64,000 bases of DNA from Terriglobus sp. TAA 43 (GTDB lineage: Bacteria; Acidobacteriota; Terriglobia; Terriglobales; Acidobacteriaceae): NCBI RefSeq assembly GCF_000800015.1, contig NZ_JUGR01000003.1:62001-126000 (forward strand), written 5' to 3'. Under the pieces are notes generated by a model. The model was not told the DNA's origin. It saw nothing but the letters and a program-made list of their open reading frames with translations, and did no database searches. Every line of letters begins with the position of its first letter. Position 1 is the first letter of the stretch. Positions 5,577-32,770 of this stretch are shown here, piece after piece. A program made the position numbers and the translations under genes.

Positions 5577-6443
5577 CTAGTGGGGAATCACGCCGAGATA
5601 GTATGCCAATCGATTTTCGGCGTCCCCGGGCTTATGAAAGCCCCGTTCCATTAGTTCCTTGATCCCATTCTGGGCGGCGGGACGTCCCAGAGATGCAATG
5701 CAAGCGTCCCATCCAGCACCAATCTCTACATCTGGAGGAAGTTTGGCGTTTACGAGTCGTTTCGTCTGACCAATCGCCCACTTGTCGAACTTCGCGATGC
5801 GAGTGGCTAACCCATCCACATAAGCGTCTAACTCACTGTCGGGAATCGAGCGGTTGATGTACCCATACGATTCGGCTTGGTCCGCTCGCAGATCTTCGGA
5901 ACTCAACAACACTTCTAGAGCGCGGTTCCGGCCGATGAGTTCAGGCAATCGAGCCATAGGACCGCCCCCGGCAACCATGCCTACTCCCACCTCCCATTGC
6001 GAGATGATCGTCTTTTCGCGGCTGGCGAAACTCATGTCGCAGGCGAGCGTTATCTCGCTCCCATTTCCGGTCGCACGACCGCGAATCAAAGCAATCGAAC
6101 AGACTGGTAGACGCGTGAGCCTCACCAGGAAGTCCGGCCAGAGGGGAAGGCCCGTTGGTCCCGGAGGAAGCGAGGTCAAGTCTTCGAGCTTCGCTGTGAA
6201 ATCAGAGTGATTAAGGAAGTAGTCTTCAACCGCACTTTCGAAGACGACAACTCTCACTTGCTCGTCAGCTTCCAAGGCGTTTATGACCTTTTGAAATTCC
6301 TTAACCATTTCCGGTCCCATCACGTTCAGCGGAGGGTTATTGATCGTCACCCTCCAATACTGTGGAGAGTGACAAGTGATTCGAAGTTGCGCTGATGTTG
6401 GATTTGTAGCGGTGGACGTCATCGGTGCACTCATGGTTGCCAT
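5577..6443 (-). CDS. enoyl-CoA hydratase/isomerase (crotonase) family protein, copy 1
   Basis: Crotonase-fold protein of 288 residues. The oxyanion-hole segment reads RGRATGNGSEITLACD. Both family glutamates appear to be kept, in SQWEVGVG and in NRALEVLL, so hydration or isomerisation of an acyl-CoA is plausible. It starts at an ATG with a GAGGAG SD. A clear paralog lies at 10898-11767 with the same WEV and ALE positions and the same length. Both copies have a long N-terminal beta region and a C-terminal tail ending in PGDAENRLAYYLG-like sequence. The acyl-CoA substrate is unknown. The neighbours do not form a beta-oxidation operon, so a moonlighting or detoxification role is possible. Confidence 0.85.
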   Translation of the reverse strand: MATMSAPMTSTATNPTSAQLRITCHSPQYWRVTINNPPLNVMGPEMVKEFQKVINALEADEQVRVVVFESAVEDYFLNHSDFTAKLEDLTSLPPGPTGLPLWPDFLVRLTRLPVCSIALIRGRATGNGSEITLACDMSFASREKTIISQWEVGVGMVAGGGPMARLPELIGRNRALEVLLSSEDLRADQAESYGYINRSIPDSELDAYVDGLATRIAKFDKWAIGQTKRLVNAKLPPDVEIGAGWDACIASLGRPAAQNGIKELMERGFHKPGDAENRLAYYLGVIPH

Positions 6444-6568
6444 AACAATCTCCTCGATAGTCGTGTCTGTATGGAAAGAAGCATCTGATCGTTAGTCCTC
6501 GATAGCCTTTCTGCTGGCGATTCGAATTCTGACAATCAAAGAGGTTCTCGGAACCGGGGTTGCCGATA

Positions 6569-7066
6569 TCAGCCTTTGATCACTGCGGCCCCGGCTTCGC
6601 TGACGATTTCGTCTTGAGAATCCGTTCCGCCCGAGCATCCAATAGCCCCGATGATCTTCCCTTCCGTGATCAAGGGAATGCCGCCTCGAGAAGCGATCAC
6701 TCCATCAAAGGCGAGCAGATAGTTGAGATGCATGAGTTGAATGCCATCCTCAAATACCTTCGTTGGCCGCCGAAAGGTAGCTCCTGCACGGGCTTTGTGT
6801 TGAGCGATCTGAGCAGCAGCAAGCATTGCCCCGTCCATACGTTGAAAGGCCACAAGGTTGCCACCAGAATCGACGACCGCTAGGTTCATCTTCCAATTTC
6901 TCTTTGTAGCTTCGGCTACACCCGCGCGGATGACAGCCTGGGCTTGGTCTAATGAGATCGGTGGGCCGTAGGGCACATCGAACGGTATTTCCGCTGGTAC
7001 AGCGTCGAGCGGGTTGACTACTTGATCTTCAGAAGATGCAGTGATACTTGTGTTCTTCGTTGACAT
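6569..7066 (-). CDS. GlcG/HbpS-family protein, cytoplasmic type
   Basis: Small protein of 165 residues of the GlcG/HbpS (DUF336) family, which includes the heme-binding HbpS of Streptomyces and GlcG of glycolate operons. The family core is visible as NLAVVDSGGNLVAFQRMDGA, followed by the Gly-rich C-terminus GAIGCSGGTDSQDE. There is no signal peptide, unlike the second family member at 17355-17876. The start has a strong GGGGGAA SD. The function of the family is poorly fixed; oxidative-stress or cofactor binding is the usual suggestion. An ACCTTGGTAT motif lies about 200 bp upstream. Confidence 0.85.
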   Translation of the reverse strand: MSTKNTSITASSEDQVVNPLDAVPAEIPFDVPYGPPISLDQAQAVIRAGVAEATKRNWKMNLAVVDSGGNLVAFQRMDGAMLAAAQIAQHKARAGATFRRPTKVFEDGIQLMHLNYLLAFDGVIASRGGIPLITEGKIIGAIGCSGGTDSQDEIVSEAGAAVIKG

Positions 7067-7263
7067 GACAGTTCCCCCAAGGGTGACGTTTTCTTGCGGT
7101 GAGATGGTAAACGTGCGTTGTCCAGGTTTCGGTCAATACGCAGTCACGGGACAAAGCACATAAGCGGTATAGGACTTGGCGAGTGATCTCTTTGTGGAAT
7201 CTCACTACCGCTCATTCTGAACAGAACAGCGAACAGAAACTACTGCACGATGGTGTGTTCTAC

Positions 7264-7273
7264 ACCTTGGTAT
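7264..7273. promoter_or_regulatory. ACCTTGGTAT motif, candidate regulator site
   Basis: The 10-mer ACCTTGGTAT sits in the spacer between the reductase fusion and the HbpS-like gene. The same 10-mer recurs at 17065-17074, and its first eight bases at 17144-17151, upstream of the other HbpS-like gene and the DJ-1-like gene. That is a shared-regulator pattern. The cognate factor is unknown. Confidence 0.35.
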
Positions 7274-7292
7274 CGGAACACTCCTCGCGAAG

Positions 7293-9035
7293 TCACAGCT
7301 GACTACCTTCCAACCTCGCATTGCCGCTTGATCCAAGCGTGTAAGGCATCTCCGACCGTAGCTCTGCGAGAGCACGATGGACAAAGCTGATTGCAACAGC
7401 CCCTTCGCCGACAGCAGACGCAACTCGCTTAACACTTCCCGCTCGTATATCTCCTACTGCGAAGATCCCCAAAACGTCCGTTTCAAATGGTTGGGGTAAG
7501 CGTTGAGCAGGCCACGCGCTCATCCTGTCGAAGGATGTCGAAGCTGGAAGATCGCGCCCCGTAAGCACAAACCCGTTTTCATCAAGATTGACTGCCCCGG
7601 TCAACCAGCTTGAGTTAGGAGTTGCACCCGCCATGAAGAACACGTGCTTGGTTGCAATGGTTGTCTTCTTCCCGGTGCGATTGTTCTTCCACGATGCGCA
7701 GACGACAGCATCGTAGCCGTTCACTTCAACGAGCTCGGTGTCGTGAAGAAGCTCAATGGTTGCATTCGCGTTGATCCGTTGAATCAGGTATTGAGACATG
7801 CTTGCGGATAAGTTGGACGAACGCACCAGCATGTACACCTTCCTGGCTGACCTCGCCAAGAACACCGCCGCTTGTCCAGCCGAGTTCCCGCCACCCACGA
7901 CTACGACGTCTTCATTGCTGCAGTCCTGGGCTTCCGCTTGAGTTGCAGCATAGTGCAATCCACATCCCTCGAACTTAGATGGCTCAAACACATCAGGCTT
8001 CTTATAGCGAGCTCCTGTAGCGATCAGAACTGTCTTGGCAAGAAAGTGATGCCCATCACCTGCGGTAAGTTCATACGGCCAACGCGACGAATTAAGCTGC
8101 GCGATTGCGCATGCTACCGAAATCTTTGCACCGAATTTCCGGGCTTGTGCAGTCGCACTCGACGCTAGTTCTTGCCCTGAAATGCCCGTAACGAAGCCCG
8201 GATAGTTTTCGATTCTTGAACTCGTACCGGCTTGCCCTCCAGGGGCGTGACTCTCAATCAAGAGGACATCAAGCCCCCCCCAGGCTGCGTAAACTGCAGC
8301 AGCGAGCCCAGCAGGACCCGCTCCGACGATAATCAAGTCGCGAACCATATCGCGATTCACGCTGCCGTTCCATCCCAGTTCCTCTGCCAATTCAAGTGCA
8401 GAAGGATTCTTGAGAACAGTCTTGTTGTTGCAAATGACGATAGGAATGTCATTGGCATCAACCCCGAAGCGATCAAGCAAAGACTGCGAACCAGCATCTG
8501 CCTCGAGTTCGACGTAGTTGTAGGGATAACCATTGCGATCAATGAACTCTCGGACGGACGAGGTTCTCGGAGAATGCATGGATCCAATCACGGATACATT
8601 TCCGAGATGCCGATCAACCAACATCAAGCGTCTGAGCATGAAAGCCCGCAAGAGTATGTCGCCAATCTCGGAATCCTGGGAGACGAGTAGACGTAGCCTC
8701 TCTGGTTTAACTTCCAATACTTCGCCAGCCTCAATGACACGAGCAAGCACCACAGCCGGTTGGCCACCAATCATTCCGGCCTCTCCAGTGAACATTCCGG
8801 GAAGCAAATCAACGACGGCCCTCTCCCCTGCCGCTGTTGGCTGTACTATTTCGAGGGCCGACGACAAGAGGACAAAGAACGAGACTGTCGAGTCTCCCGG
8901 GCGATATAGAACTGCCCCCACGTGAACTCGTCTCATTTCGCCGAATGCACGAACGCGTTCGATCTGCTCTGAGGACAACCGCGGATACATTCCAGCCTGC
9001 TCTGCGATGGGATTCCGTACGATTTCGAAAGACAT
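7293..9035 (-). CDS. cyclic-nucleotide-binding domain fused to thioredoxin-reductase-like flavoprotein
   Basis: Three-part protein of 580 residues. Residues 1-140 form a CRP-type cyclic-nucleotide-binding beta-roll (GEAGMIGG). Residues about 145-225 look thioredoxin/glutaredoxin-like but have no CxxC (IGSMHSPRTSSVREF). Residues from about 230 form an FAD/NADPH two-nucleotide-binding reductase, with FAD motif VGAGPAGLAAA and NADPH motif VVGGGNSAGQAA. The region where classic TrxR carries CATC reads GLHYAATQAEAQ, so the redox disulfide is missing and electrons probably go to something other than thioredoxin. The start ATG has a strong AGGAGGT SD. It may reduce a quinone, flavodoxin or ferredoxin under nucleotide control; that is inference. 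Confidence 0.88.
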   Translation of the reverse strand: MSFEIVRNPIAEQAGMYPRLSSEQIERVRAFGEMRRVHVGAVLYRPGDSTVSFFVLLSSALEIVQPTAAGERAVVDLLPGMFTGEAGMIGGQPAVVLARVIEAGEVLEVKPERLRLLVSQDSEIGDILLRAFMLRRLMLVDRHLGNVSVIGSMHSPRTSSVREFIDRNGYPYNYVELEADAGSQSLLDRFGVDANDIPIVICNNKTVLKNPSALELAEELGWNGSVNRDMVRDLIIVGAGPAGLAAAVYAAWGGLDVLLIESHAPGGQAGTSSRIENYPGFVTGISGQELASSATAQARKFGAKISVACAIAQLNSSRWPYELTAGDGHHFLAKTVLIATGARYKKPDVFEPSKFEGCGLHYAATQAEAQDCSNEDVVVVGGGNSAGQAAVFLARSARKVYMLVRSSNLSASMSQYLIQRINANATIELLHDTELVEVNGYDAVVCASWKNNRTGKKTTIATKHVFFMAGATPNSSWLTGAVNLDENGFVLTGRDLPASTSFDRMSAWPAQRLPQPFETDVLGIFAVGDIRAGSVKRVASAVGEGAVAISFVHRALAELRSEMPYTLGSSGNARLEGSQL

Positions 9036-9121
9036 GATTCCACCTCCTGCTTGCCCCCAGTCCTTGCGCCGCTATTGAAGTGAGCGCACGGTCCTCCATG
9101 GAACGGCACAGACTACATGCG

Positions 9122-10855
<1,734 letters not shown>

Positions 10856-10897
10856 CTATTAGGTGAATCACTCGATGGTTGGCGTCAGTTTGCAGGC

Positions 10898-11767
10898 TCA
10901 GCCCATTGAGTGGCTTGGTGTTTCTGATGATGTTCCTAGTTCCCCCACGTAACGCCCAAGATGGCTTTCCAGATCACCGGGAAAATGTAAGCCTCGCTCG
11001 GCGAGTTCTTTCAATCGCATCTGCGCCTCAGGCCTTCCCAGTGCCTCTGTGAACGCTTGCCACTGAGGAGGAAACTCTTCGTTGGGTGGCAAACTGTTGA
11101 TGTTGACCAACTGCTTCGTTTGAGAAATCGCCCATTTGTCGAACGAAGCGATTCGCCATGCCAAGGCGTCAACAAACCCATCGAGTTCATGATCAGGAAA
11201 TGACCGATTGACATAGCCATACTGTTCAGCCAAGTCGCCGGGGACGTCATCCGCCCCAAGAAGAATCTCCAGCGCACGTCCCCGCCCCATTAAGCGAGGC
11301 ATACGCGACATCGGCCCTCCGCCTGGAACCAAAGCCGCTCCAACTTCCCAGTGCGACAGAATCGCCTTTTCGCGACTAGCAAAACGCATGTCACTCGCTA
11401 ACGCCAGTTCACTACCAACACCGGTTGCACGGCCGCGAATTGATGCAATCGAGACCACTGGGGAACGGCTCAGTCTGACAAACATGTCGGGTACCGCAGG
11501 AAGTCCCGTTGGTCCTGGAGGAAATACTGCTGACTCTTCTGGTCTTGGACGGAGATCGTAATGAGTTAAGAAGAAGCCCTCGATCGCGCTATCGAATACA
11601 ACGACCTTTAGATCTGAATCGCGTTCGATAGAACTGACCACTTCCTCAAGCTGGGGGATATTCGCAGGGCCAAAGATGTTCAATGGAGGAAGGTCAAAGG
11701 TTACGCGCCAAAAAGAACTTGAATGATGAGTGACTCGGACAGCGCCCTCTCGATAGGTAGCGTTCAT
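10898..11767 (-). CDS. enoyl-CoA hydratase/isomerase family protein, copy 2
   Basis: Second crotonase-fold protein, 289 residues from the preferred start. That ATG has a perfect GGAGG SD seven bases away; a longer form could begin at 11788 without a good SD. The same landmarks as copy 1 are present: RGRATGVGSELALASD oxyanion region, SHWEVGAA and GRALEILL, each with its Glu. It is clearly paralogous to 5577-6443, from an old duplication given the sequence drift. It lies downstream of the exported hydrolase and sigma factor genes on the same strand but is separated from them by 315 bp. Confidence 0.85.
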   Translation of the reverse strand: MNATYREGAVRVTHHSSSFWRVTFDLPPLNIFGPANIPQLEEVVSSIERDSDLKVVVFDSAIEGFFLTHYDLRPRPEESAVFPPGPTGLPAVPDMFVRLSRSPVVSIASIRGRATGVGSELALASDMRFASREKAILSHWEVGAALVPGGGPMSRMPRLMGRGRALEILLGADDVPGDLAEQYGYVNRSFPDHELDGFVDALAWRIASFDKWAISQTKQLVNINSLPPNEEFPPQWQAFTEALGRPEAQMRLKELAERGLHFPGDLESHLGRYVGELGTSSETPSHSMG

Positions 11768-12082
11768 AACTGCCTCCGGTTTCTTCATTAGGCTGTGTCA
11801 CTACTAGTCCAATCAATCGGACCTAAGTATCAGCGACACTTTCGTATAGGAAATGTTTGTTGGATACGCTTTGCGCCTTCTTCGTCCACGGAGAAAACGG
11901 TGCCCTTTGGAGTAACGGCGCTCGTTGTGTCGATGAGGCTAAGAGCAGGAGCGCTGCGATTCCGTGCCCCTGTCTTCACGGCAGGGCAACTTGCTGATTC
12001 ATGGAGGAGAATGCGCTCTAGAGGTCGCGCTTCTCATCGCCCTCTCTCGCACAGAGTTGCTGGATAGTTGCTGGATATCCTC
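11768..12082. other. intergenic, no gene seen
   Basis: 315 bp between the hydrolase stop and crotonase copy 2. It holds the GGAGG SD of the crotonase gene. I find no credible small gene or RNA. Confidence 0.35.
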
Positions 12083-13039
12083 TCACCACGTTTTCTTGAC
12101 GAAATTGCGCACCAGGTCCGCGATGTTGTCTGCATCCGTATCGAGTGCGAAGTGGCCGGTATTCAGAACGTGTACTTCTGCGTTCGGAACGTCGCTGCGA
12201 TAACGTTCCGGTTCGCCTATATCAAAGGACGTGTCATACTTCCCCCACAGGACGAGCAGTTTGGGCTTTGTGTGCTGCATCCATGCTTGCCACGAGAGAT
12301 AGGCTTCCACGTTTGTCCGATAGTCGTAGAACAGCTCGGTCTGAATGTCCGCTTGGCCGGGAGCAGTCAAGAAGGCATGTTCATCCGTCCACAGATCTGG
12401 GTCATAGAGTTCGATCCGTGGATCAGTTCCAAGATGACGTTTCTTGGTAGCTTCGAAAGACAACAGATTTTCTCGTAGCGTTTCCTCATGAGCTTTGCGA
12501 TCCGCCCAGTACGCACGCCTTGGAAGCCAGTTGGGACCTAATCCCTCGTTGTGCGCCACAGCATTCTGCACAATGAGGGATCGCACTCGCTCTGGATGCT
12601 GAAGCACCATTCGAAAGCCGACCGGTCCACCATAATCCTGCATATAGAGGACGTATCTCTTCAAACCCACGGCCACCGTGAAGTCGTTCATGACGTTCGC
12701 AATGTGATCGAAGGTGTATTGGAATTGATTCGGAGCCGGCCAATCACTATGCCCAAATCCAGGATAGTCAGGAGCAATGAGGTGGAAATTGTTTGCTAGC
12801 CGCGCAAAGAGTGGCTCAAACATTCTCGATGAGGAAGGAAGACCATGCAGAAGCAGGATCGTCGGGGCATCTTTGGGCCCCGCCTCGCGATAAAAGATTG
12901 AGAGGCCATCGACAGTGACCGTTCGGTATTGAACTTTAGTATTCATCGGAGGTTGCCTTTCTAACGCGTCACAATACGCGGTGCGCATTTCTGTAAAAGC
13001 CAGGATGAGTAGAAGAACTCCAACAAAACGCCTAAACAT
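12083..13039 (-). CDS. exported alpha/beta hydrolase with Asp nucleophile (dehalogenase/epoxide-hydrolase type)
   Basis: Hydrolase of 318 residues. It has an N-terminal signal (FRRFVGVLLLILAF), an oxyanion HGLPSSS segment, and the nucleophile elbow MQDYGGPVGF. The nucleophile position is Asp instead of Ser, as in haloalkane dehalogenases and epoxide hydrolases. The acid lies in LWGKYDTS and the base in NTGHFALD. The start was chosen at the ATG with a GGAGGG SD, which overlaps the stop of the sigma factor gene by 8 bp (ATGTTTAG), so the two are almost certainly cotranscribed and coupled. It is predicted to be periplasmic. The substrate is unknown. Confidence 0.88.
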   Translation of the reverse strand: MFRRFVGVLLLILAFTEMRTAYCDALERQPPMNTKVQYRTVTVDGLSIFYREAGPKDAPTILLLHGLPSSSRMFEPLFARLANNFHLIAPDYPGFGHSDWPAPNQFQYTFDHIANVMNDFTVAVGLKRYVLYMQDYGGPVGFRMVLQHPERVRSLIVQNAVAHNEGLGPNWLPRRAYWADRKAHEETLRENLLSFEATKKRHLGTDPRIELYDPDLWTDEHAFLTAPGQADIQTELFYDYRTNVEAYLSWQAWMQHTKPKLLVLWGKYDTSFDIGEPERYRSDVPNAEVHVLNTGHFALDTDADNIADLVRNFVKKTW

Positions 13040-13730
13040 CGCTTGTCCCTCCCTGAAGAGATCGCCCGCCAGATGGCCCGTTACCAGATGAAGCAAGCAT
13101 CATTCCCAAACTGACGCGAGCCCGATGAAGTCTTGATTTTGCGGCGGCCCGCGAGATGTTCAGTTGCGACGCTACTTCCTGAATTGAGGATTCTTCTAGA
13201 ACGCAAGCTGCCGTTACGCCCTTGAGAATTCCCGGAAGCCTATCAACCGCCCTGCGAAGGATTTCGCGCCTCTGTTCCCCGCAACAAATCTCTTCAGGAC
13301 TGGGCGAGTCATCATGTGGATCCATGCTGATCCCGCCCCCCTCATACGGCGTAAGGGTCTCGAAGAAATCGATTCGAGCACGTCGGCGTCTGCGCAGGAT
13401 TGACAGTGCAGAGTTCCTCGCAATTCGCACGAGCCATGAGTAGAACGAGGAACGTTCCTCGAAACTAACAATTCCACGAAATGCCAGGAAGAAAGCTTCC
13501 TGGACAGCATCCTCTGCGTCCGCTCGGTTCCTGACGATCGCGAATGTGACTCGGTAGATTTTCTTCGAGTACAGTCTCCAAAGACCGTCAAACCCCTCCG
13601 GTTCTCCCATGCATGCGGCTCTCACCAATTCCGACTCGCTCTTCTCAAGAAAACCCACCGGATCTGCGAACCCGTCCCGCAGACAAGCATCGTCTCTCCA
13701 TTGCGGAAATACATCGATTTGGACATTCAT
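13032..13730 (-). CDS. ECF-type RNA polymerase sigma factor
   Basis: Sigma-70-family factor of 232 residues. Region 2 shows AEDAVQEAFFLAFRG and WLVRIARNSALSILRR; region 4 shows IQEVASQLNISRAAAKSRLH, the promoter-recognition helix-turn-helix. The start ATG was chosen for its GAGGGG SD; the frame is open to 13850 but without a ribosome site. No anti-sigma gene is adjacent. Instead, its 3' end overlaps the exported hydrolase gene. The linker between regions 2 and 4 contains two adjacent Cys (EEICCGEQRR), which could be redox-sensitive; that is speculative. Confidence 0.88.
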   Translation of the reverse strand: MNVQIDVFPQWRDDACLRDGFADPVGFLEKSESELVRAACMGEPEGFDGLWRLYSKKIYRVTFAIVRNRADAEDAVQEAFFLAFRGIVSFEERSSFYSWLVRIARNSALSILRRRRRARIDFFETLTPYEGGGISMDPHDDSPSPEEICCGEQRREILRRAVDRLPGILKGVTAACVLEESSIQEVASQLNISRAAAKSRLHRARVSLGMMLASSGNGPSGGRSLQGGTSDV

Positions 13731-14229
13731 GATCAACCCCTCATGTGAGGAATCCAAGCCCGTGGAGTTCCTCTCGTTAAGCCGTTCGGTGGTAACAATA
13801 GCGCTGCTGCATATGCAGCTGGCTCGCAGCGCTGTTGCCACGCTGCCCATTGCAATGTCCTATCAGCAATCGCCGACTGGTTCGTCTCCATGCATGCTGG
13901 AGCTGAACAGAATTCTGAACCGGTACGCAGGTTGAAACAATCGGACGTTGGTATAGCTCCAGACCAAAAATGCCCAACCAGTAATTGCGTCCACTCTTGA
14001 AGAGTCAGCGTAACTTCCTTGAGCGATACCATCGTTCAATTGTTTCTTCGCTGTCCGTCTGCTGTGATCACGGAACGGCCATCGCTGAGAGATATGCGAC
14101 GCCAAGGAATCGATCGGCTCAAATCCTAGAACAGGTGGCGTCTCTTAGTGAGAAGACGCCAACCATCTCCTGATTACATCTACAGGTTCGCTAGCGGAAT
14201 TCAACAGAAGCATTTAGGAGGACGCTACT
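13731..14229. other. divergent intergenic region with leader hairpin
   Basis: About 500 bp between the divergent sigma factor and glycosyltransferase genes. No gene is seen. An inverted repeat at 14134-14164 (GGTGGCGTCT paired with AGACGCCAACC, one bulged A, 10-nt loop) lies about 65 bp upstream of the glycosyltransferase start. It could be a leader hairpin or an operator. Promoters for both genes should be here. Confidence 0.4.
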
Positions 14230-24873: not shown

Positions 24874-27800
24874 TTAAAAGTGCAGCCGAAGTGCGATCTG
24901 TAATGATCGCGGACCTCCCGATTCATACAGTGATCCCGTGGAGCCAAAACTCTGATTCAACATCAAGGTCGCCTGACCAAACAGTGCATCCATAAGGGTT
25001 GGGTCGATATATCCGAATTGCGGATGATTGAAGACGTTGAATCCGTCTACCCTGAATTGAAGTTTGAGCTTTGTCCGCAACGAGAAGTCTCGACGTACCG
25101 ACAAGCTCACCTGAGAAGCGCCGAAGCCTCGCAACTGATTGCGCGGAGCATTGCCTGCGGCGGTTCCGCTCGGTAGTGCAAAGGCGGGCGAGGTTACATT
25201 GGGCCCGCCATTGATGATTCTGCCGCCGGGATACTGTCCGCCGTAGAGGTAGAGCGAGCGTCTGGGTAGTAGGTCGACTCCACTGTAATAACGATTGCCA
25301 GTGGCTGAGTCAGAGAAGATGTTTCCTAGAGGTGTGATTGGAAAAGCGCTGCGAAGACTGAGTCTTCCGTCAATGGCCCATCCCGAGAACAAAGTGCTCC
25401 CTGGTCGTGCGTTCGGATGGAAGTGTGGATCCCATGTGATCGCTGCCTGGAGATTGTGACGGACGTCGAGGTCAGAGTTCCCTCGACTCAAGGGAAAGGC
25501 CGGGGCGGTCGAGCCGTAATCCAGAGTGTGCGACCATCCGTAGCTTGCAAGGACCTGCAGCCCCTTGCTGAGGCTTCGTTGGAACTTGATCTGCAAAGCC
25601 TGATAGCTGGACGTGACCTGACCCGGGAAGAAATAGATCTCACCCAACAACGGGTTCTGTCCCTGAACATTTCTAAGTTGCTTTTGGAGTAGCCTGCGAC
25701 CGTCGGTTCCAACCCATGACACATCGATTGTTTGACTTCTTCCTAGCGACTTCTCAAGCGCGACGTTCCATTGGAGTGCATACGGTAGCTGGAGGTGATG
25801 AGGAAATGCGAAGACCGCTGCGGTCCCGTATGAAGGCGTTGAAAAATCTAGCTGCGCTGGAGTAATGGGAACCGGCACATTCGATAGATGTCTTGTCTCG
25901 GAAAAGCCCATCGCTGAGAACGATTCCACCGCAGCCTGATTCGGCGTTGCGAAGTAGACTCCCATTCCTCCCCGTAACAGCAATTCCTTTCCGGGCGTTA
26001 CTATGGGTGACCAGACAGCGCCCGCATGCGGAGCGACGTTGAATTTCCCCGTGCGCCAAAGGGGCGTGCCTCTGCTGGCCAGGCTAAGCGTTGACGGAGC
26101 ATTCACGTCCCCGAGCAATGTGTAGGCATCGTTGCCGTCGCTACCACGCGGAGGCGGTGCTATCTCCCATCGAAGGCCTGACGAGACGGTGAACGTTTTC
26201 GCGATCCGCCACTCGTCCTGAACGAACGCGGCGAACTGCTCGAAGACGGGCTTGGCTGTCCCGTTCCTTGTGATAGACATGGCAGACGACAGATTCCGCG
26301 TTAGGGCATTCGTGCTGAAGAAGTCCGCTTCAACACTGAGCGCAGGAGGCCGGATAGTGGAGACGACGCGTCGTTGATCGAAGCCAAAGCGTAGGAGGTG
26401 CCCGCCAACCTGGGCACTGATCGTGTCTCGCAGGTTCCATTGCTCGAGTCTGCCTGAAGCGTGGTCGGTCAGAATCTCCGATGGCCCCGCACCCGGTATC
26501 TGAATGAAGACGTCGGCACTTGAGCCGTCTGTCGATGATGGCAGCCCCATAAGAGTGTTGAGGCTATTGCCGTAGTGGAACGACGTGGAGTAGGAGAAGT
26601 TGTCGAGTGATGTCGCCAACGAAGCGTGGCTTGCAGCATAGCCTACCCGCAGATCATTGCTGGCTCGCGCTCCGAGTTGTGCATCGAACCCTGCAGTTAA
26701 GGTGCGCGTGTCGACATGCACGCGAGTCAGTGACGAGAGGCTACCGGCTTCACTGCTGCTCGGCGTTTCGCCATAGCGAAAGAACCCGTTAAAACGAAAG
26801 GACGACGCTTGATCAAAGCGGACGCTCGTCGCGTTGACGATGCCAGGATACGAGGTTGCACCGCCTGCGTACGGCGCCAATCCAGTCGAGTCTGTGGATG
26901 GATACTCAGTACCGTAATCGCCTTGCGGAAAGAGGTTAAGCACCGGCTGAAGATCTCCCGCGGCCTCTCCCTGCAATCTCAGGCGAGGTTCGAACTGTAC
27001 TTGTGGTGCCGATGGTTGTTGAACGTTAAGGCCTTCATATGAAAGAAACAGGAATCCCTTGCTTGTTCCTCGATGCATACCGGGGACAGACACGGGCATG
27101 CCCAGAGTCCCCCCGAAATCATCCTGGTGATAGGTTGTACGTCTGTCCGCATGATTGAAGCGCGTGTACCAGTCGTTCGCGTCGAGCGCGTCTGTTCGCA
27201 CGTAGTTGAAGAGGGTGCCGTGAGGGGTGCTGGTGCCGGACCGCGTGAGCAGAACAAGCTGGCCCGCTTGCGACCGTCCGTACTCACTCGAATACGTAGA
27301 CGTCAACACCCGAAACTCTTGCAGAGCATCGACCGCGACGAGGCTTTGCGTCGTGCCTAACGCTGTGAGTCCAGCAACGCTGCCGTCACTCGCAAATTTC
27401 TGATGGCCAGCGAGTGTGCCCGTGCCAACATTTGCAGAGACACCGTCGACCGTATACCCGTTCGCATCCACCTGCTGGCCGTTCACACTGAAGGTTCCAC
27501 GTCCTCCAAACGTCTGTCCCGTCACTTGCGGACTCTGCGTAAGAGTGCCGGGAGTCATGTCAATCAAGTCCTGAAAGCTTCGACCGTTTAAGGGCAGATT
27601 CCCCACGAACTCCTTGTCGACCACCGTGCCTACCGAGATGTCACCGCTATCAAGCGATGTGCCTGTTTGCTCGACATTCACGGTTTGGGAGACAGAGCCA
27701 ACCCGCATGCGTATGAGCAGATTCTTCGTATCTCCTACGTGGAGCGTGATGCCGGTGACCTGCACCGCAGCAAAGCCTTCGCGGTCGATCTCCAACGTGT

Positions 27801-28053
27801 AGTCGCCCGGAATAATACCGGGCATCAGGAACGCTCCACTGCGGTTCGTCTTCGAGTCATTCTCCGTACCCGTCAGAAGATTGACTAGCTTCACGTCCGC
27901 ATCGGCGATGCGAGCCGTCGTCACGTCAACAACTGTTCCCATCACACTCGCAGTACTGACCTGCGCAATGAGACGCATCGACAGCACGTTGATGCTTGCG
28001 AGCCAGAAAGGACAGATCAGGCAGGCTCTATAACTTCTCCCCCTAAACCACAT
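24874..28053 (-). CDS. Oar-like TonB-dependent receptor coupled to a sigma/anti-sigma fusion gene
   Basis: Outer-membrane receptor of about 1,059 residues. A signal region is followed by a CarboxypepD_reg domain (MGTVVDVTTARIADADVKLV), a plug-like region with LPLNGRSFQDL and VNGQQVDANGYTVDG, and a long barrel ending in LQIALRLHF. The start codon overlaps the stop of the upstream gene (GTGATG containing TGA), so translation is coupled and there is no clear SD. The context recalls FecI-FecR-FecA systems, where a regulator controls its cognate receptor, but here the regulator is one polypeptide. The substrate is unknown. Confidence 0.9.
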   Translation of the reverse strand: MWFRGRSYRACLICPFWLASINVLSMRLIAQVSTASVMGTVVDVTTARIADADVKLVNLLTGTENDSKTNRSGAFLMPGIIPGDYTLEIDREGFAAVQVTGITLHVGDTKNLLIRMRVGSVSQTVNVEQTGTSLDSGDISVGTVVDKEFVGNLPLNGRSFQDLIDMTPGTLTQSPQVTGQTFGGRGTFSVNGQQVDANGYTVDGVSANVGTGTLAGHQKFASDGSVAGLTALGTTQSLVAVDALQEFRVLTSTYSSEYGRSQAGQLVLLTRSGTSTPHGTLFNYVRTDALDANDWYTRFNHADRRTTYHQDDFGGTLGMPVSVPGMHRGTSKGFLFLSYEGLNVQQPSAPQVQFEPRLRLQGEAAGDLQPVLNLFPQGDYGTEYPSTDSTGLAPYAGGATSYPGIVNATSVRFDQASSFRFNGFFRYGETPSSSEAGSLSSLTRVHVDTRTLTAGFDAQLGARASNDLRVGYAASHASLATSLDNFSYSTSFHYGNSLNTLMGLPSSTDGSSADVFIQIPGAGPSEILTDHASGRLEQWNLRDTISAQVGGHLLRFGFDQRRVVSTIRPPALSVEADFFSTNALTRNLSSAMSITRNGTAKPVFEQFAAFVQDEWRIAKTFTVSSGLRWEIAPPPRGSDGNDAYTLLGDVNAPSTLSLASRGTPLWRTGKFNVAPHAGAVWSPIVTPGKELLLRGGMGVYFATPNQAAVESFSAMGFSETRHLSNVPVPITPAQLDFSTPSYGTAAVFAFPHHLQLPYALQWNVALEKSLGRSQTIDVSWVGTDGRRLLQKQLRNVQGQNPLLGEIYFFPGQVTSSYQALQIKFQRSLSKGLQVLASYGWSHTLDYGSTAPAFPLSRGNSDLDVRHNLQAAITWDPHFHPNARPGSTLFSGWAIDGRLSLRSAFPITPLGNIFSDSATGNRYYSGVDLLPRRSLYLYGGQYPGGRIINGGPNVTSPAFALPSGTAAGNAPRNQLRGFGASQVSLSVRRDFSLRTKLKLQFRVDGFNVFNHPQFGYIDPTLMDALFGQATLMLNQSFGSTGSLYESGGPRSLQIALRLHF

Positions 28054-31000
28054 CACGGATTACCAGGAGAAGGCAGAGAGCTGCCCCGATTGTTCTTTCC
28101 TGCATGAGGCGCTTGAGACATGGAAAGCTGCTGTGCAAAGTCCGCGGCTCTTGTCACTTCTTCCATGGGCACGGATGCTCTTGCGTGTGCCAACAAGTCC
28201 ACGGCATTCTGACCGGAGGTTTGAGCGGCGTTGGACGTAAATGCAAGCCCGATTGTCCGATTTAGCTCTTGGGTCTTACGCAGCAGCTGGGAAACGGTAT
28301 GTGCGAACATCATCGGATTGTCGATGGGGGCTGTGCCTGCGTCGATTAACAGCTCGGGCCCTTTGTTGTATGGAGCGATGGTAGCGAGTTGAGTCTCTAA
28401 CGCACTCAATTGATCTTGTAGTTCGACAGCATGTGTTGCAGCCATCTCTGCCCACTGCTGCTGATAGATGGGCCCAGCGAGTCGAAGCTCGGTCATGGTG
28501 AAGTCTGTTTTCAACCGATCCAAGGCATACGCATGTTGCAAGGCACGCTGAGCATTCTCGAGCACGTCGCGCGAAAACTGGGATGCAGCCATCTTCTGAT
28601 CGTCATTCGATCTGCCGGAGGTCGAGAAGTACCTCTTGATGAGGGCATCTGCAGGGGGCTCAGCGCCCGTTACACTATAGACGCTAACGGGAAGCGCCTT
28701 GCTCCTCGGGAGTGAAGACGCATTGGCATCGTACTGGCCTTGGGTGTTCAGATTCACAATCAGGAGTTGTTGCTCTGGCAGTGTCTTCAGCCTTGACACG
28801 ATTTCTGCTCTTCGCGATTCGCTCGATAGAACTCCCGATACCAACAGTCGCCCATCTGGCGTTCTCAATATCTGCAACGGCTCTCCAATGTCGGCTTGCA
28901 TCTTTGTCATCGCGTACAGCGTCTCGACCTGCAACTGAACCAACTTCGTCTCGGACGTTGTCGAACTTTGGCGCTCTGAAGCAGTTCGGCCTGGCACATC
29001 GGTTGATCCACCTTGACTCTTTTGCTCAGAGAACACATTATCCAGAACTTGCGACGACGGCTCAAACTCTTGCGTCAATAAGACGAATTTAGCGCTCCGG
29101 ATCGGCGACGTACTGCCCAGATGCAACTCTTCTCGAACAACCTTGAAATGCTTATCGAGCACAAGGACACCCGAGTCGACATGCCCTTCCAGCTGCGGTC
29201 CAAAGGAGGCGCTGAGCGTATACCCGTCCGCATCGGTTGCAGCCTGTACGGTTTTACCCACCAGGCTGCGGAAGCTTTGCGGCGATACGTCACGCTTCCA
29301 TAAATCATTCTCAAGAAGCTGGCGTGCCGCGTGGTCAACGATTGCACCTTCTGGAGCGGTCGATTCATCCGCGTGTCCGTCTCGACTGTTCCACGCCGAC
29401 GCAAGAAGATGATGATGGGTGTCATAGAGACGTCGCATGGAGCGACCATTCTGTTGCCACACTTCAACAACACCCTTGAGTTGTTGACCGTTGGAGCTTG
29501 TTTCTTCCAGCACCAGGGTCTGATGCTTCGTAGCCTCCACCATCGCCATTGCTTCCGCCTGAACCGCTTGATCAAGCACTGCATTCCCGTCGACACGAGC
29601 AACGCCGACGTGATGGATGAGGTAGGCTCCCGTCGCGAGTACGAGAACAGTTGCAAGAATCCATGCGCCGACAGGCGATGGGAACAGGGTTGAGAGGAGT
29701 TCCTTGACCGACAGACGTCGCCCCAAGTTCTGTGTGGGCGTTATGGCCGGAGCATTGGCGCCTTCGCTCAACTCTAGATGGACGGGAAACGCATCAGGAT
29801 CGAAGTAGATAGCTTCGCCGTGAATACCAAGTCCGTCGAATGTGATTTTAAGATTCAACCTTCGACGTTCACTGAGAGAGATGCTTTGCGACAGGGTTGA
29901 CGGTCCGCTGGGTGGAGCGTCCCCAATGGAAATCAGCGCGAGTCGAACCTGCTGCTCGCTAAAGACCTCCACAAAGTCAGGCCGCTCGGAGTAGTCCAGT
30001 CGCGCAGCGAGTGTGCTTTCCGTCCCATGTACATCGTGGAACGCTAGGACGCGGCCATTCACGGCGATGAACAACGCTTGAGGCCGATGGTGGAAGATGC
30101 GCTCTTTGTGTCGGCGCATGATTTCGAAGGTATTGTCGTCTATGCGGGGCGCGGGTCCCTGCATGTTGAGTCCGCGGTCAAAGCCATCAAGCGTATCCCT
30201 GTCGATCAGAGTGGGGCGTTGGAAGTGACGATCGATGACATTCAAGCATCGTTCGCAACTGACCATGTGTGAAAGAAGATCGCAAGGAATCGGTGAAGAC
30301 GGATCCTGCGAATAAAGATCTAATAACGCGGCTTCCGGTAGGCACTCTCCTTTTCTCGCTTCAGCAATCATTGCGCGAAGCTCGGCGAAGAACTCCATCA
30401 CGGCCACTGAGACAACAGACTCAGGCGGTATCGGCTTACTGCTTTGATCGATGGAATGGACTTTGTCGATGGCAGAAAGATGCGCTCCTAGCTCGGTCCG
30501 AGCACTCTTCAGCTTGTTGTAGATGGCGGCGACGGGAAGGATCGCAAGTTCCCCGATCTCGCGGGGGAAATATCCAAGAAAGAAGTGGAGGATGAAATAG
30601 CTGAAACTCTTCGATGCGTCCTTTCGCCAGACAGCGTAGGAACAAATCGCGCGAAGTTCGTTCTGGATGGCCAGCGATCCATTCCGATCATTTCCTAGGA
30701 GCGCGAACTGTACTGAGTCGAAATCGGCGACACTCACGAACCGCAGCGTCTCGCGAGAGGCCTGATCCAGGCGAGACAGATACACGTGGCGGAGTGAGGT
30801 GTAGAGGTAGCCCTCAAGATTGGCAACAGTGTCGAAGTCTACGTTCGTCAACATGAGGTAGACGCACAAGTCGTGGACGACTTCCCGAGCCAAACCTGCA
30901 TCGCCTCGAGTCAGCAGAACGCCCCAGCGAAGCAGTCGATCGTAATGGCGTTCGAGGAACTCGTCCGGCTTTCGGAGAGAACCGAACGCGCTCCATGTTG

Positions 31001-31064
31001 TTTTCTTTGGGACCATCAAGCGTAATGAGGGATTGCCGGTTTCGAATCTACCCTTCAACCCCAT
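28053..31064 (-). CDS. single-chain ECF-sigma-like / zinc anti-sigma-like / transmembrane / periplasmic fusion protein
   Basis: About 1,003 residues with an architecture I do not recognise as a named family. Residues about 37-103 resemble sigma region 2 (EFLERHYDRLLRWGVLLTRG, then LEGYLYTSLRHVYLSRLDQ). Residues about 150-195 resemble region 4 (FLGYFPREIGELAILPVAAI then YNKLKSARTELG). At about 266-273 HMVSCERC fits the HxxxCxxC motif of zinc anti-sigma factors. A cytoplasmic beta-rich stretch follows, then one helix (about 465-485, GAWILATVLVLATGAYLI) and some 500 periplasmic residues including a small BON-like segment (PDGRLLVSGVLSSESRRAEI). I start at the ATG at 31064; TTG at 31085 is possible. 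It is coupled to the downstream Oar receptor. Sequence drift could mean region 2 is inactive. Confidence 0.72.
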   Translation of the reverse strand: MGLKGRFETGNPSLRLMVPKKTTWSAFGSLRKPDEFLERHYDRLLRWGVLLTRGDAGLAREVVHDLCVYLMLTNVDFDTVANLEGYLYTSLRHVYLSRLDQASRETLRFVSVADFDSVQFALLGNDRNGSLAIQNELRAICSYAVWRKDASKSFSYFILHFFLGYFPREIGELAILPVAAIYNKLKSARTELGAHLSAIDKVHSIDQSSKPIPPESVVSVAVMEFFAELRAMIAEARKGECLPEAALLDLYSQDPSSPIPCDLLSHMVSCERCLNVIDRHFQRPTLIDRDTLDGFDRGLNMQGPAPRIDDNTFEIMRRHKERIFHHRPQALFIAVNGRVLAFHDVHGTESTLAARLDYSERPDFVEVFSEQQVRLALISIGDAPPSGPSTLSQSISLSERRRLNLKITFDGLGIHGEAIYFDPDAFPVHLELSEGANAPAITPTQNLGRRLSVKELLSTLFPSPVGAWILATVLVLATGAYLIHHVGVARVDGNAVLDQAVQAEAMAMVEATKHQTLVLEETSSNGQQLKGVVEVWQQNGRSMRRLYDTHHHLLASAWNSRDGHADESTAPEGAIVDHAARQLLENDLWKRDVSPQSFRSLVGKTVQAATDADGYTLSASFGPQLEGHVDSGVLVLDKHFKVVREELHLGSTSPIRSAKFVLLTQEFEPSSQVLDNVFSEQKSQGGSTDVPGRTASERQSSTTSETKLVQLQVETLYAMTKMQADIGEPLQILRTPDGRLLVSGVLSSESRRAEIVSRLKTLPEQQLLIVNLNTQGQYDANASSLPRSKALPVSVYSVTGAEPPADALIKRYFSTSGRSNDDQKMAASQFSRDVLENAQRALQHAYALDRLKTDFTMTELRLAGPIYQQQWAEMAATHAVELQDQLSALETQLATIAPYNKGPELLIDAGTAPIDNPMMFAHTVSQLLRKTQELNRTIGLAFTSNAAQTSGQNAVDLLAHARASVPMEEVTRAADFAQQLSMSQAPHAGKNNRGSSLPSPGNP

Positions 31065-31138
31065 AATTATTTTCTCACTGGGCAAGCATCGCGACGAATT
31101 GCGTCATTCGTGCCGTTCCAAGGTAGTTTCGGTAACGC

Positions 31139-32770
31139 ATGCGGCTCTATCGCTACAACATGCTGCAGCCTCTGCCTGATCCGCACAACGCTCCTGCCCG
31201 CCTATCTACTTACGTTCACTTCCACCAACACCGACACGCCAGCAAAGCCGACATTGCGCGTACACACCCGGCCCTGTTAAGTGGGAGTTGTCTTCTTGTT
31301 GCCTGCGTGACCATCTTTGCGGCCAACACGCTGCATTGGCCGCTATCGGGCGATGCAGCGCTTATGCGCTACATCAGCTTCCTGATGGACCACGGGCGCG
31401 TACCGTATCGCCAAATCGACGACATGAACCTGCCCGGCTCATATTTGGTGGATTATGCCGTCCTTCATCTGCTTGGTAGCAGCTCCCTGGTATGGCGCAT
31501 CTTCGACCTCGGCCTGACGGCGGTCGCCGCAGTTGCAATGATGTCGATAGCACGACCCTATGGGTGGTTTTCGGGGTTATCAGCCGCGGCGTTGCTGACA
31601 CTCATTCACGGTCAAGACGGCATCTTCGAACTCGGCCAGCGCGATCTTGTTGTGGCAGTCCTTGTATTGCTCGCGTACGCAACGTTCTTTCAGGCAACCA
31701 GAAAGGAGTCACCGCGGTGGATGCTCGCCTTTGGCATAAGTGCAAGCCTTGCTACGACGATCAAGCCCATCTTCATCTTCTTTGGCGTCGCCTTGCTTCT
31801 CGTGATGGTGGCCGAGAAGACAAAGAGACAGCAGACAGTCTCCTCATTCGCCTACTACGGTATCGTCGGTCTACTGCTACCGCTTGCGGCTACGGCTACC
31901 TTCCTCTCGGCGATGCATGCATCCACGGACTTCATCTCCGTCATGACGGGCCTGCTGCCATTCCACACGGGGTTAGCGCGGAAGCCCTTAGGCTTTCTAC
32001 TCTTGCATTCTTTCTCACCTCTCCTGCCACTCGTCCTGTTGTGGATTCCCTGCCTCCGCACGCAATGGAGGCGATGGGGCACGTTTGAGGGAAAAGCCAT
32101 GCTGATTGGCCTGACGTTTGGACTTGTCTCATACATTGCACAAGGAAAGGGATTCTCTTATCACCGCTATCCGTTTCTCGCCATGCTCCTGATGATCATG
32201 AGCATCGATTGCTATCGCAGCACACAGGAGAGCGGCTGGGCGCGGCCTATTGGTTGGGTGGGGATTGCGTTCGGCGCACTTATCCTGGCACCGCTCTGCA
32301 CCATCAAAGCAAGTCGGTACGACTGGCATAACAACGAATTCTCCGAGATGCTGCAGAGTGATCTGCTGCGTTTGAGCGGTGGAAGTGTATCGGGCCATGT
32401 GCAATGCATCGACACAATCGGCGGATGCTTCTCCGTTCTCTACGACTTGAGAGCCTTGCAACGCGATCGATTTATCTACGACGAGTTCCTATTCAACGCG
32501 ACAGAGAATCAGGCTGTTCTGAGAGCGCGGGAGTCGTTCTTCGAGGAACTTCGGCGAAAGCCACCACAGTTACTTGTGGTCACAGACGATCTGTTCCCTT
32601 CAGGTCCGAACAACTTCCAGAAGGTAAAGCAGTGGCCTAAGTTCGCAAGCTATCTGAAAGCAAACTACTTTCAATGTGCCCAAGGCCGACCACCACACAC
32701 GATCAAGTGGTGGAGTCGTGAGCAACAGCCGAGTACGTATCAAATCCTTTGCTATCGACCCGGGATATGA
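31139..32770 (+). CDS. polytopic GT-C-like membrane protein
   Basis: Integral membrane protein of 543 residues with about ten predicted helices. An early loop holds LSGDAALMRYISFLMDHGRV then PYRQIDDMNLPGSYLVDY, matching the acidic-motif loop region of polyprenyl-phosphate-sugar (GT39/GT83-like) transferases. A soluble C-terminal domain of about 150 residues is probably periplasmic. It could mannosylate or otherwise glycosylate envelope proteins or lipids. It starts 74 bp from the divergent regulator fusion, so the two share a promoter region. It has a weak SD. No glycan cluster is adjacent, so the acceptor is unknown. Confidence 0.7.
   Translation: MRLYRYNMLQPLPDPHNAPARLSTYVHFHQHRHASKADIARTHPALLSGSCLLVACVTIFAANTLHWPLSGDAALMRYISFLMDHGRVPYRQIDDMNLPGSYLVDYAVLHLLGSSSLVWRIFDLGLTAVAAVAMMSIARPYGWFSGLSAAALLTLIHGQDGIFELGQRDLVVAVLVLLAYATFFQATRKESPRWMLAFGISASLATTIKPIFIFFGVALLLVMVAEKTKRQQTVSSFAYYGIVGLLLPLAATATFLSAMHASTDFISVMTGLLPFHTGLARKPLGFLLLHSFSPLLPLVLLWIPCLRTQWRRWGTFEGKAMLIGLTFGLVSYIAQGKGFSYHRYPFLAMLLMIMSIDCYRSTQESGWARPIGWVGIAFGALILAPLCTIKASRYDWHNNEFSEMLQSDLLRLSGGSVSGHVQCIDTIGGCFSVLYDLRALQRDRFIYDEFLFNATENQAVLRARESFFEELRRKPPQLLVVTDDLFPSGPNNFQKVKQWPKFASYLKANYFQCAQGRPPHTIKWWSREQQPSTYQILCYRPGI

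Follow-up and report, generated by a model that had tools for sequence, protein, structure and literature searches.

How one gene might carry a sigma factor, the domain that restrains it, a membrane anchor and a periplasmic sensor, and what such a protein would control, is the question raised by a locus of Terriglobus sp. TAA 43. The window, meaning the whole stretch of 64,000 nucleotides that was analyzed (contig NZ_JUGR01000003.1, positions 62,001 to 126,000), contains on its reverse strand an open reading frame (ORF) at 28053-31064, followed by the gene of an Oar-type TonB-dependent receptor. The original prediction, made from the letters alone, had read in this frame segments resembling regions 2 and 4 of an extracytoplasmic function (ECF) sigma factor, an HMVSCERC zinc motif, one transmembrane helix and about 500 periplasmic residues, and had proposed a sigma factor that inhibits itself and is either freed by proteolysis or kept at the membrane permanently. 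Our analysis makes it probable that the gene encodes a self-inhibited ECF sigma factor that is anchored in the inner membrane, paired with the receptor encoded downstream, released by proteolysis and autoregulated.

The frame has no stops and encodes 1003 amino acids (aa) from ATG 31064, the codon from which all residues are numbered here, or 1010 aa if read from TTG 31085. The frame as predicted is therefore open throughout, but its start is probably ATG 31016, which would give a protein of 987 aa. Two observations point to this codon: a motif that stands just ahead of the start codon in close relatives sits at 31053-31023 in the window, inside the called ORF, and the nearest relative has its first residue at the equivalent position. 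The initial 16 residues in the 1003-aa frame are thus probably promoter and not protein. The order of the domains is sigma region 2, sigma region 4, a zinc anti-sigma domain, a cytoplasmic beta domain, the membrane helix, a LolA/RseB-like domain, a BON-like domain and a helical tail.

The sigma domains are weak in the window copy and firm in its relatives. In the first 204 residues of the window protein, Pfam Sigma70_r2 is matched with an expectation value (E) of 0.0063, below the Pfam cut-off, while region 4 is unreported; the NCBIfam model TIGR02985 spans both regions with an E of 5.2e-6, below its cut-off. Among 32 members of the family (E up to 0.1), Sigma70_r2 is matched in 31 (best E 4.2e-11) and Sigma70_r4_2 in 16 (best E 7.2e-8), and the profile of these members matches SigH in the Protein Data Bank (5zx2) with an E of 1.1e-10. 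The family thus has sigma-70 regions 2 and 4 only, homologous to those of known ECF factors. Compared with its nearest relative, the protein is 77% identical in sigma region 4, 66% in sigma region 2, 60-61% in the zinc and beta domains and 43-46% in the periplasmic domains, which makes region 4 the most conserved domain and region 2 the second; neither an absence of sigma matches nor a loss of conserved residues in the relatives, either of which would have spoken against a sigma factor, was seen. A Sigma70_r2 search of the organism's own genome (4.95 Mb) returned 28 matches, the fused gene not among them, and for this reason and because of its weak sigma scores automatic annotation could miss the gene. 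A fold search of the sigma half, in which ECF sigma factors top the list but with an E of 0.05 and above and large deviations, was set aside.

The zinc domain follows the sigma regions with the pattern C...Hx3Cx2C, that is, Hx3Cx2C and a further ligand upstream, a use of ligands that we take to be that of the ZAS anti-sigma factors. H266, C270 and C273, which belong to the predicted HMVSCERC motif, show no variation across the 32 rows, and at least 90% of the rows keep C241. The Pfam zf-HC2 profile, proposed earlier as a check on this domain, matches none of the 32 members at E up to 0.1.

An AlphaFold2 model of residues 1-447, built with 32 sequences (pLDDT 84.8, pTM 0.82), shows helices for both sigma regions, then the zinc domain and then a helix and eight strands (residues 310-421). 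All fused rows surveyed except L084 and the two short forms have this conserved cytoplasmic beta domain, which the original prediction had missed; the separate anti-sigma genes of two other loci (L086 and L087) have it too. Profile and fold searches gave it neither a Pfam family nor a clear fold match, and ferritin and chromodomain matches in the profile searches (E 0.024 and above) were taken as chance. About 515 residues follow the membrane helix. A second model, of residues 305-1003 (pLDDT 77.8, pTM 0.49), was used for a Foldseek comparison of the periplasmic part; of its 27 matches with E up to 0.001, almost all are named LolA or LolB; the best is P. gingivalis LolA (8cgm, E 6.5e-6, TM-score 0.54 on target length), and RseB (2v43) is matched with an E of 1.0e-3. 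The periplasmic part thus has a LolA-like half-barrel by fold comparison only, since sequence-profile searches gave no usable match, and because the fold search gives no aligned range the domain was put at residues 493-669 from the secondary structure of the model. The topology of residues 699-774 is presumably that of a BON domain; no database match exceeds the threshold, the sole hint being a weak YscD BON-like match in one of 26 members (E 0.029). The membrane and periplasmic part of these 26 members has no Pfam match better than E 0.001, and the FecR family is not among their matches (Pfam E up to 1, NCBIfam E up to 0.1). Together, sequence and models establish a predicted architecture in which every part named in the original prediction is found, in that order and in one frame.

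In the window the fusion gene and the receptor gene share a 4-base overlap. The survey of this neighborhood comprised 45 rows in which a single frame encodes both sigma and zinc domains, of which 44 are distinct (L127 repeats L081) and 42 readable, the sequences of L064 and L077 ending before the receptor position. The receptor comes next in 40 of the 42: it is the next same-strand gene in 34 rows, it follows a small barrel gene in L060 and L061 (Pfam OMP_b-brl E 7.5e-8 and, below cut-off, 1.2e-4) and a frame break in the fused gene in L069 and L078, and its first part is seen at the contig edge in L059 and L070 (profile E 8.7e-49 and 2.1e-41). The two loci without an adjoining receptor, L082 and L083, are also without membrane helix and sensor. 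One genome, G052, contains six fused paralogs (L035, L036, L040-L042 and L044), each with an Oar-type receptor directly downstream, of which only the start is visible, at a contig edge, in L036; these six may form a set of insulated parallel pathways. As the own genome has about 65 such receptors (78 OMP_b-brl_4 barrel matches in 65 separate frames, within 4.95 Mb), the adjacency of fusion and receptor is not chance, and the coupling foreseen from this one locus holds as an architecture conserved in Acidobacteriota.

CarboxypepD_reg is present in all 27 receptors tested beside fusions (of about 40) and in all 8 beside split systems, described below, while the STN domain is found in none of the 27 and none of the 8 at E up to 0.01. 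A signal from the receptor would therefore have to pass through another contact, perhaps one between its CarboxypepD_reg domain and the helical tail of the fusion. A FecR-type system was dropped as an explanation because FecR and STN were both not found. Nine genes lying after the receptor in other loci were scanned; they encode three Peptidase_S9 proteins, one met-zincin (DUF4953), two members of redoxin/thioredoxin families, one protein with weak Omp28 and TPR matches and two without a match. Peptidase genes thus follow the receptor in four of the nine loci (L063, L067, L073 and L054), a hint of peptide or protein use. In the window the genes after the receptor are on the opposite strand.

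What the sigma factor would transcribe is suggested by a motif found upstream of the close relatives, GGGTAGATT-N14/15-CTCTTTA. When 43 upstream regions were scored (44 less L085), it was found within 3 mismatches in 8, against 1 of 430 shuffled sequences. The eight carriers (the window gene, L034, L054, L055, L056, L057, L058 and L074) are eight of the nine members of the window's own clade in the sigma tree, the ninth, L059, having 6 mismatches, and the motif ends 6-8 bases ahead of the start codon in all of them. The reverse strands of the same regions gave one match within 3 mismatches, in L034, before its divergent gene. The divergent gene of the window is 58% identical to that of G002, in which the counterpart of the second, divergent motif copy has one mismatch, and is a candidate member of the same regulon.

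A strict form, GGGTAGAT-N14-17-CTCNTTA, was then found at 10 sites, with at least one in each of the seven genomes that carry the window clade and none for the reversed-pattern control. Five sites precede a fused gene; the motifs of the fused genes in G481 and G484 have mismatches and hence do not count here. Four genomes hold the remaining five (L132-L134, L136 and L141), about 31-41 bases ahead of the start codons of a single gene family, which encodes a putative outer-membrane barrel of about 255 aa. Its Pfam matches are weak, with E values of 0.0091 and 3.3e-4 that fall below cut-off, and the L055 copy has no match. The G482 copy is broken, in L055 and L074 the gene lies less than 5 kb from the fusion, and the own genome has two distant relatives of the protein (best 29% identity) with no motif site there. 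That this family is the barrel of the L060 and L061 operons was unsupported, its profile finding only the L055 and L074 copies. Among 26 genomes of the genus or family without a full-length fusion, three of which have the split form, the strict motif occurs once, inside a coding frame.

A relaxed form occurs exactly twice in the own genome (4.95 Mb), once per strand, between the fused gene and the divergent PMT_2-family gene; exactly twice in G002, in the same intergenic place; and exactly twice in G052, at one of the six fused genes and its divergent LysR regulator gene. Single relaxed hits mean little because a search of 26 genomes gave 12 true hits and 6 for the reversed control: two of 16 same-genus, fusion-free genomes have one site each (G009 and G011), both in coding frames, and the one site of G483, inside a reading frame, was counted as chance. 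Paired sites at one intergenic region in three genomes seem unlikely to be due to chance. With its two boxes spaced 17-18 bases and lying at varying distances from the start codons, the motif is better explained as a promoter than as an operator, and a dedicated, autoregulatory promoter is strongly suggested by these sequences; it would be the fused sigma factor that recognizes it. The best reading of the regulon is that it includes little beyond the own locus. The features are collected in Table 1.

Table 1. Features of the fusion locus, in window coordinates
Feature	Position	Strand	Residues	Basis or remark
Fused sigma/anti-sigma/sensor gene, probable start	28053..31016	-		987 aa; motif position and start of nearest relative
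ECF sigma region 2	30744..30968	-	33-107	Profile matches and model
ECF sigma region 4	30471..30686	-	127-198	Profile matches and model
Zinc anti-sigma-like domain	30192..30401	-	222-291	C241, H266, C270, C273
Zinc motif HMVSCERC	30246-30269	-	266-273	
Conserved cytoplasmic beta domain, family unassigned	29793..30137	-	about 310-424	Helix and eight strands
Single membrane helix	29601..29672	-	about 465-488	Hydropathy in relatives, helix in model
Periplasmic LolA/LolB/RseB-like fold	29058..29588	-	493-669	Limits from secondary structure of model
BON-like domain	28743..28970	-	699-774	Helix-strand-strand-helix-strand in model
C-terminal helical region	28110..28649	-	806-985	Model
Oar-type TonB-dependent receptor	24874..28056	-		CarboxypepD_reg, plug, OMP_b-brl_4 barrel
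Promoter-like motif GGGTAGATT-N15-CTCATTA	31023..31053	-		6 bases before ATG 31016
Divergent degenerate copy AGGTAGTTT-N15-CTCTATC	31121..31151	+		4 mismatches; 8 bases before ATG 31160
PMT_2-family membrane glycosyltransferase-like protein, divergent	31160..32770	+		Called ORF begins 31139

The mechanism that we propose is as follows. The zinc anti-sigma domain, together with the beta domain that follows it, would keep the sigma regions inactive, while the LolA/RseB-like, BON-like and helical domains would sense the state of the receptor or the envelope, possibly through a lipid or lipoprotein ligand. On a signal, a site-1 protease would cut the periplasmic part, an RseP-type site-2 protease would then cut the membrane helix, and the cytoplasmic piece would be trimmed to a free sigma factor, which would transcribe its own gene, the receptor gene and the divergent gene from two back-to-back promoters. 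Proteolysis, the signal and the contact with the receptor are proposed here by analogy with IutY, RseA/RseB and MucA/MucB. Self-inhibition followed by release, as originally suggested, stands as the best model, the release itself being what we infer from these analogies. The own genome has protease candidates of the kinds that cut IutY, four that match M50 (best E 5.7e-67) and two that match S41. More tentatively, since we find it possible and somewhat short of likely, the whole pathway from outer membrane to promoter would reside in one disposable polypeptide: one molecule would be consumed per activation, the freed sigma factor would refill the pool from a leaderless, locus-specific promoter that serves almost only its own receptor and neighbor, and several insulated copies in one genome (six in Paracidobacterium acidisoli) would each be wired to their own receptor.

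Several observations weigh against these proposals. The sigma and zinc domains of the window protein itself fall below the Pfam cut-offs, and the usual contact between receptor and anti-sigma factor is missing because the receptors tested have no STN domain. The presence of the proteases proves little because control genomes match too (M50 in 14 of 14, S41 in 10 of 14). The motif copy before the divergent gene of the window has 4 mismatches, and in G052 the divergent start lies 77 bases from the motif, against 8 in the window. No relaxed site occurs in G037, G039 and G048, which carry fusions of other clades, and the motif cannot be recognized in the other fused clades; of the six paralogs in G052, five lack a recognizable copy. 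The leaderless reading is weakened by a ribosome-site-like AGAGG before the ATG in some relatives. A classical ECF promoter (GGAAC-N-CGTC) was found once, at the window gene, in 37 upstream regions, against 0.285 expected from shuffles, and was rejected; another motif in clade 2, found in 5 of 7 rows against a shuffle maximum of 4, was not relied on, the 7 rows having been chosen by eye from 15; and a de novo promoter search that used 9 of the 12 rows of the Pyrinomonadaceae-type group c4 gave nothing above shuffles.

The alternative that survives best, though we consider it unlikely, is a sensor of envelope stress, in which the LolA/RseB-like domain binds a mislocalized lipid or lipoprotein and the receptor is effector or cargo and not the source of the signal. 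It draws on the LolA, LolB and RseB folds being the best matches of the periplasmic part, on the receptors tested having no STN domain, on the other predicted target being a putative outer-membrane barrel, though with weak Pfam matches, and on MucB of P. aeruginosa, in which this fold detects lipid A and controls whether the anti-sigma factor is cleaved (PMC7400510). Sensing specific to a receptor fits better with the near-universal pairing of fusion and receptor, the six paralogs of G052 included, and the peptidase genes after the receptor in four of nine loci hint at nutrient use. We think it improbable, and more so, that the protein is a membrane-tethered one-component regulator that works without proteolysis, its sigma domain acting or being silenced while anchored and the signal merely loosening the zinc domain. 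The sequence demonstrates no cleavage site, and the linkers at residues 199-221 and 425-464, which are long and poorly conserved, would permit such movement, but Prc and RseP cleave IutY, the best-studied fusion, the genome has M50 and S41 proteases, and an anchored sigma factor would have to meet chromosomal promoters and core polymerase at the membrane. That the sigma domain is a constitutive inhibitor or a relic that binds core polymerase or DNA poorly, the motif being read by another sigma factor, is very improbable, since against the weak window scores and the 28 other Sigma70_r2 matches stand the conservation of regions 4 and 2 above all other domains and the confinement of the strict motif to the fused locus and one gene family in the seven fusion-bearing genomes, with a single coding-frame site in 26 others.

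In the search for relatives, 12 of 101 related genomes gave matches and six (the own genome, G000, and G002, G037, G039, G048 and G052) contain full-length fused forms, 12 genes of which 6 are in G052. A collection scan with the alignment of these 12 genes, based on two short patterns (sigma and beta domain) and making no use of the receptor in choosing loci, gave 34 loci, all titled Acidobacteriota, with Acidobacteriaceae, Pyrinomonadaceae, Chloracidobacterium, Luteitalea and Blastocatellia among them; because two short patterns were used, this does not show absence elsewhere. A protein search of the collection contigs with the window protein alone found nothing, whereas the alignment query did find loci. 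In 396 genomes of the phylum, where at most four candidates were scored per genome and counts are lower bounds, 130 match the profile of the cytoplasmic half, among the matches listed mostly over the sigma part alone, and at least 8 have a single-frame match that covers 400 or more of the profile's 435 positions.

In a tree of 83 sigma domains, from which L047_10902 (a wrong-strand frame) and L045_13613 had been removed, all 41 fused rows, 5 of them partial or short forms, lie on one side of a branch with support 82/60 that was recovered in 79% of 200 bootstrap trees; together with the separate sigma factors of L086 and L087 they lie on one side of a 100/100 branch. A single fusion event is the simplest reading of the sequences, though not a firmly supported one. 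The periplasmic domain is shared by nine split systems, L045-L053 (9 of 9, profile E 1.4e-25 to 3.4e-109), in which a separate sigma gene precedes in all nine and an Oar receptor comes next in eight, the 1374-aa gene after L053 being untagged. Unlike the fusions, these systems have a short zinc domain, no cytoplasmic beta domain and a separate sigma factor, and as this sigma factor stems from a distant ECF clade elsewhere in the tree, sensor and sigma module seem to have been recombined.

Other arrangements were seen alongside. The own genome also has a split form (L051, G000:C1:331000-350000, at 7414-12855), with a sigma gene (207 aa), an anti-sigma/sensor gene (588 aa, 4-base overlap) and an Oar receptor gene in a row. 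L086 (7983-12971) and L087 (6759-11719) have separate sigma genes and anti-sigma genes with zinc domain, beta domain and membrane helix; in L086 a TPR-CHAT protein gene takes the place of the receptor and in L087 a gene of similar length. L082 (1508-2347) and L083 (2586-3620) encode soluble short sigma-zinc fusions (279 and 344 aa) that have neither membrane helix nor sensor. In one Pyrinomonadaceae record, L063, a fused system (5725-7616, reverse strand) and a split system (7950-11051, forward strand) stand back to back. The window itself has a second ECF-like sigma gene at 13032-13850 on the reverse strand, unfused, with 272 aa from its first possible start and a long branch in the tree. Frame breaks in L069, L078 and L085 were not used as natural splits and carry no conclusion, because sequencing error is as likely in two records of metagenome-assembled genomes (MAGs) and one isolate entry named for a lichen MAG.

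The original prediction went too far in calling this the best candidate for an unreported system, because fused sigma/anti-sigma proteins with and without zinc domains are already published, IutY, ECF52, ECF48 and ECF53 among them. Among the papers listed by searches for this variant, titles and the beginnings of abstracts show no report of such a fusion beside Oar receptors in Acidobacteria, and the group to which these proteins belong may already be defined in the published ECF classification. What is new is a zinc-type fusion beside an STN-less receptor, with a built-in LolA/RseB-like fold and an extra cytoplasmic domain. Acidobacteriota are abundant soil bacteria. The sources returned by the searches made, at the level of titles and abstract beginnings, describe no link between Oar-type receptors and gene control, and the fused family offers one, namely a regulator coupled to a single receptor, with a predicted promoter found hardly anywhere else in the genome. 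It makes testable both signalling by a TonB receptor without STN domain and a LolA/RseB-like fold acting as sensor inside the anti-sigma factor itself. The fusion sets sigma factor and inhibitor at a ratio of 1:1 and ought to reduce cross-talk, so that fused paralogs may serve as orthogonal switches of natural origin.

The fusion was compared with known systems. In FecI/FecR/FecA, as here, a sigma factor adjoins a TonB-dependent receptor under its control, but the proteins are separate and have FecR and STN domains, neither of which was found in the window family or the receptors tested. To our knowledge, Actinobacteria have no TonB receptor. Their ECF52 (SCO4117), ECF48 and ECF53 proteins combine sigma factor, zinc finger, membrane helix and extracytoplasmic part in one protein as the window fusion does (PMC5826349, PMC8999054); the tail of ECF52 is a proline-rich and carbohydrate-binding part, whereas the window family has the sigma, zinc and membrane parts and no carbohydrate-binding domain among the Pfam matches of 26 members. 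IutY of Pseudomonas putida (ECF243) has a comparable plan, with a cytoplasmic ECF sigma factor, one membrane helix and a periplasmic part in one polypeptide (PMC8999054, PMC9249621, PMC5411451), a TonB-dependent receptor alongside, and activation by site-1 and RseP-type cleavage as a model for iron cell-surface signalling (PMC8999054, PMC9249621). It is a protein of 41 kDa with a FecR-like periplasmic anti-sigma part, whereas the window fusion has about 987 aa, a zinc domain, a beta domain and LolA/RseB-like and BON-like domains, and stands beside a receptor without an STN match. A LolA-like fold is also found in Sigma-E/RseA/RseB and AlgU/MucA/MucB, whose periplasmic regulator gates proteolysis of the anti-sigma protein (PMC7400510); there sigma factor, anti-sigma factor and regulator are three separate proteins, and in the window fusion sigma factor, anti-sigma domain and a domain that is LolA/RseB-like by fold comparison only are joined in one chain.

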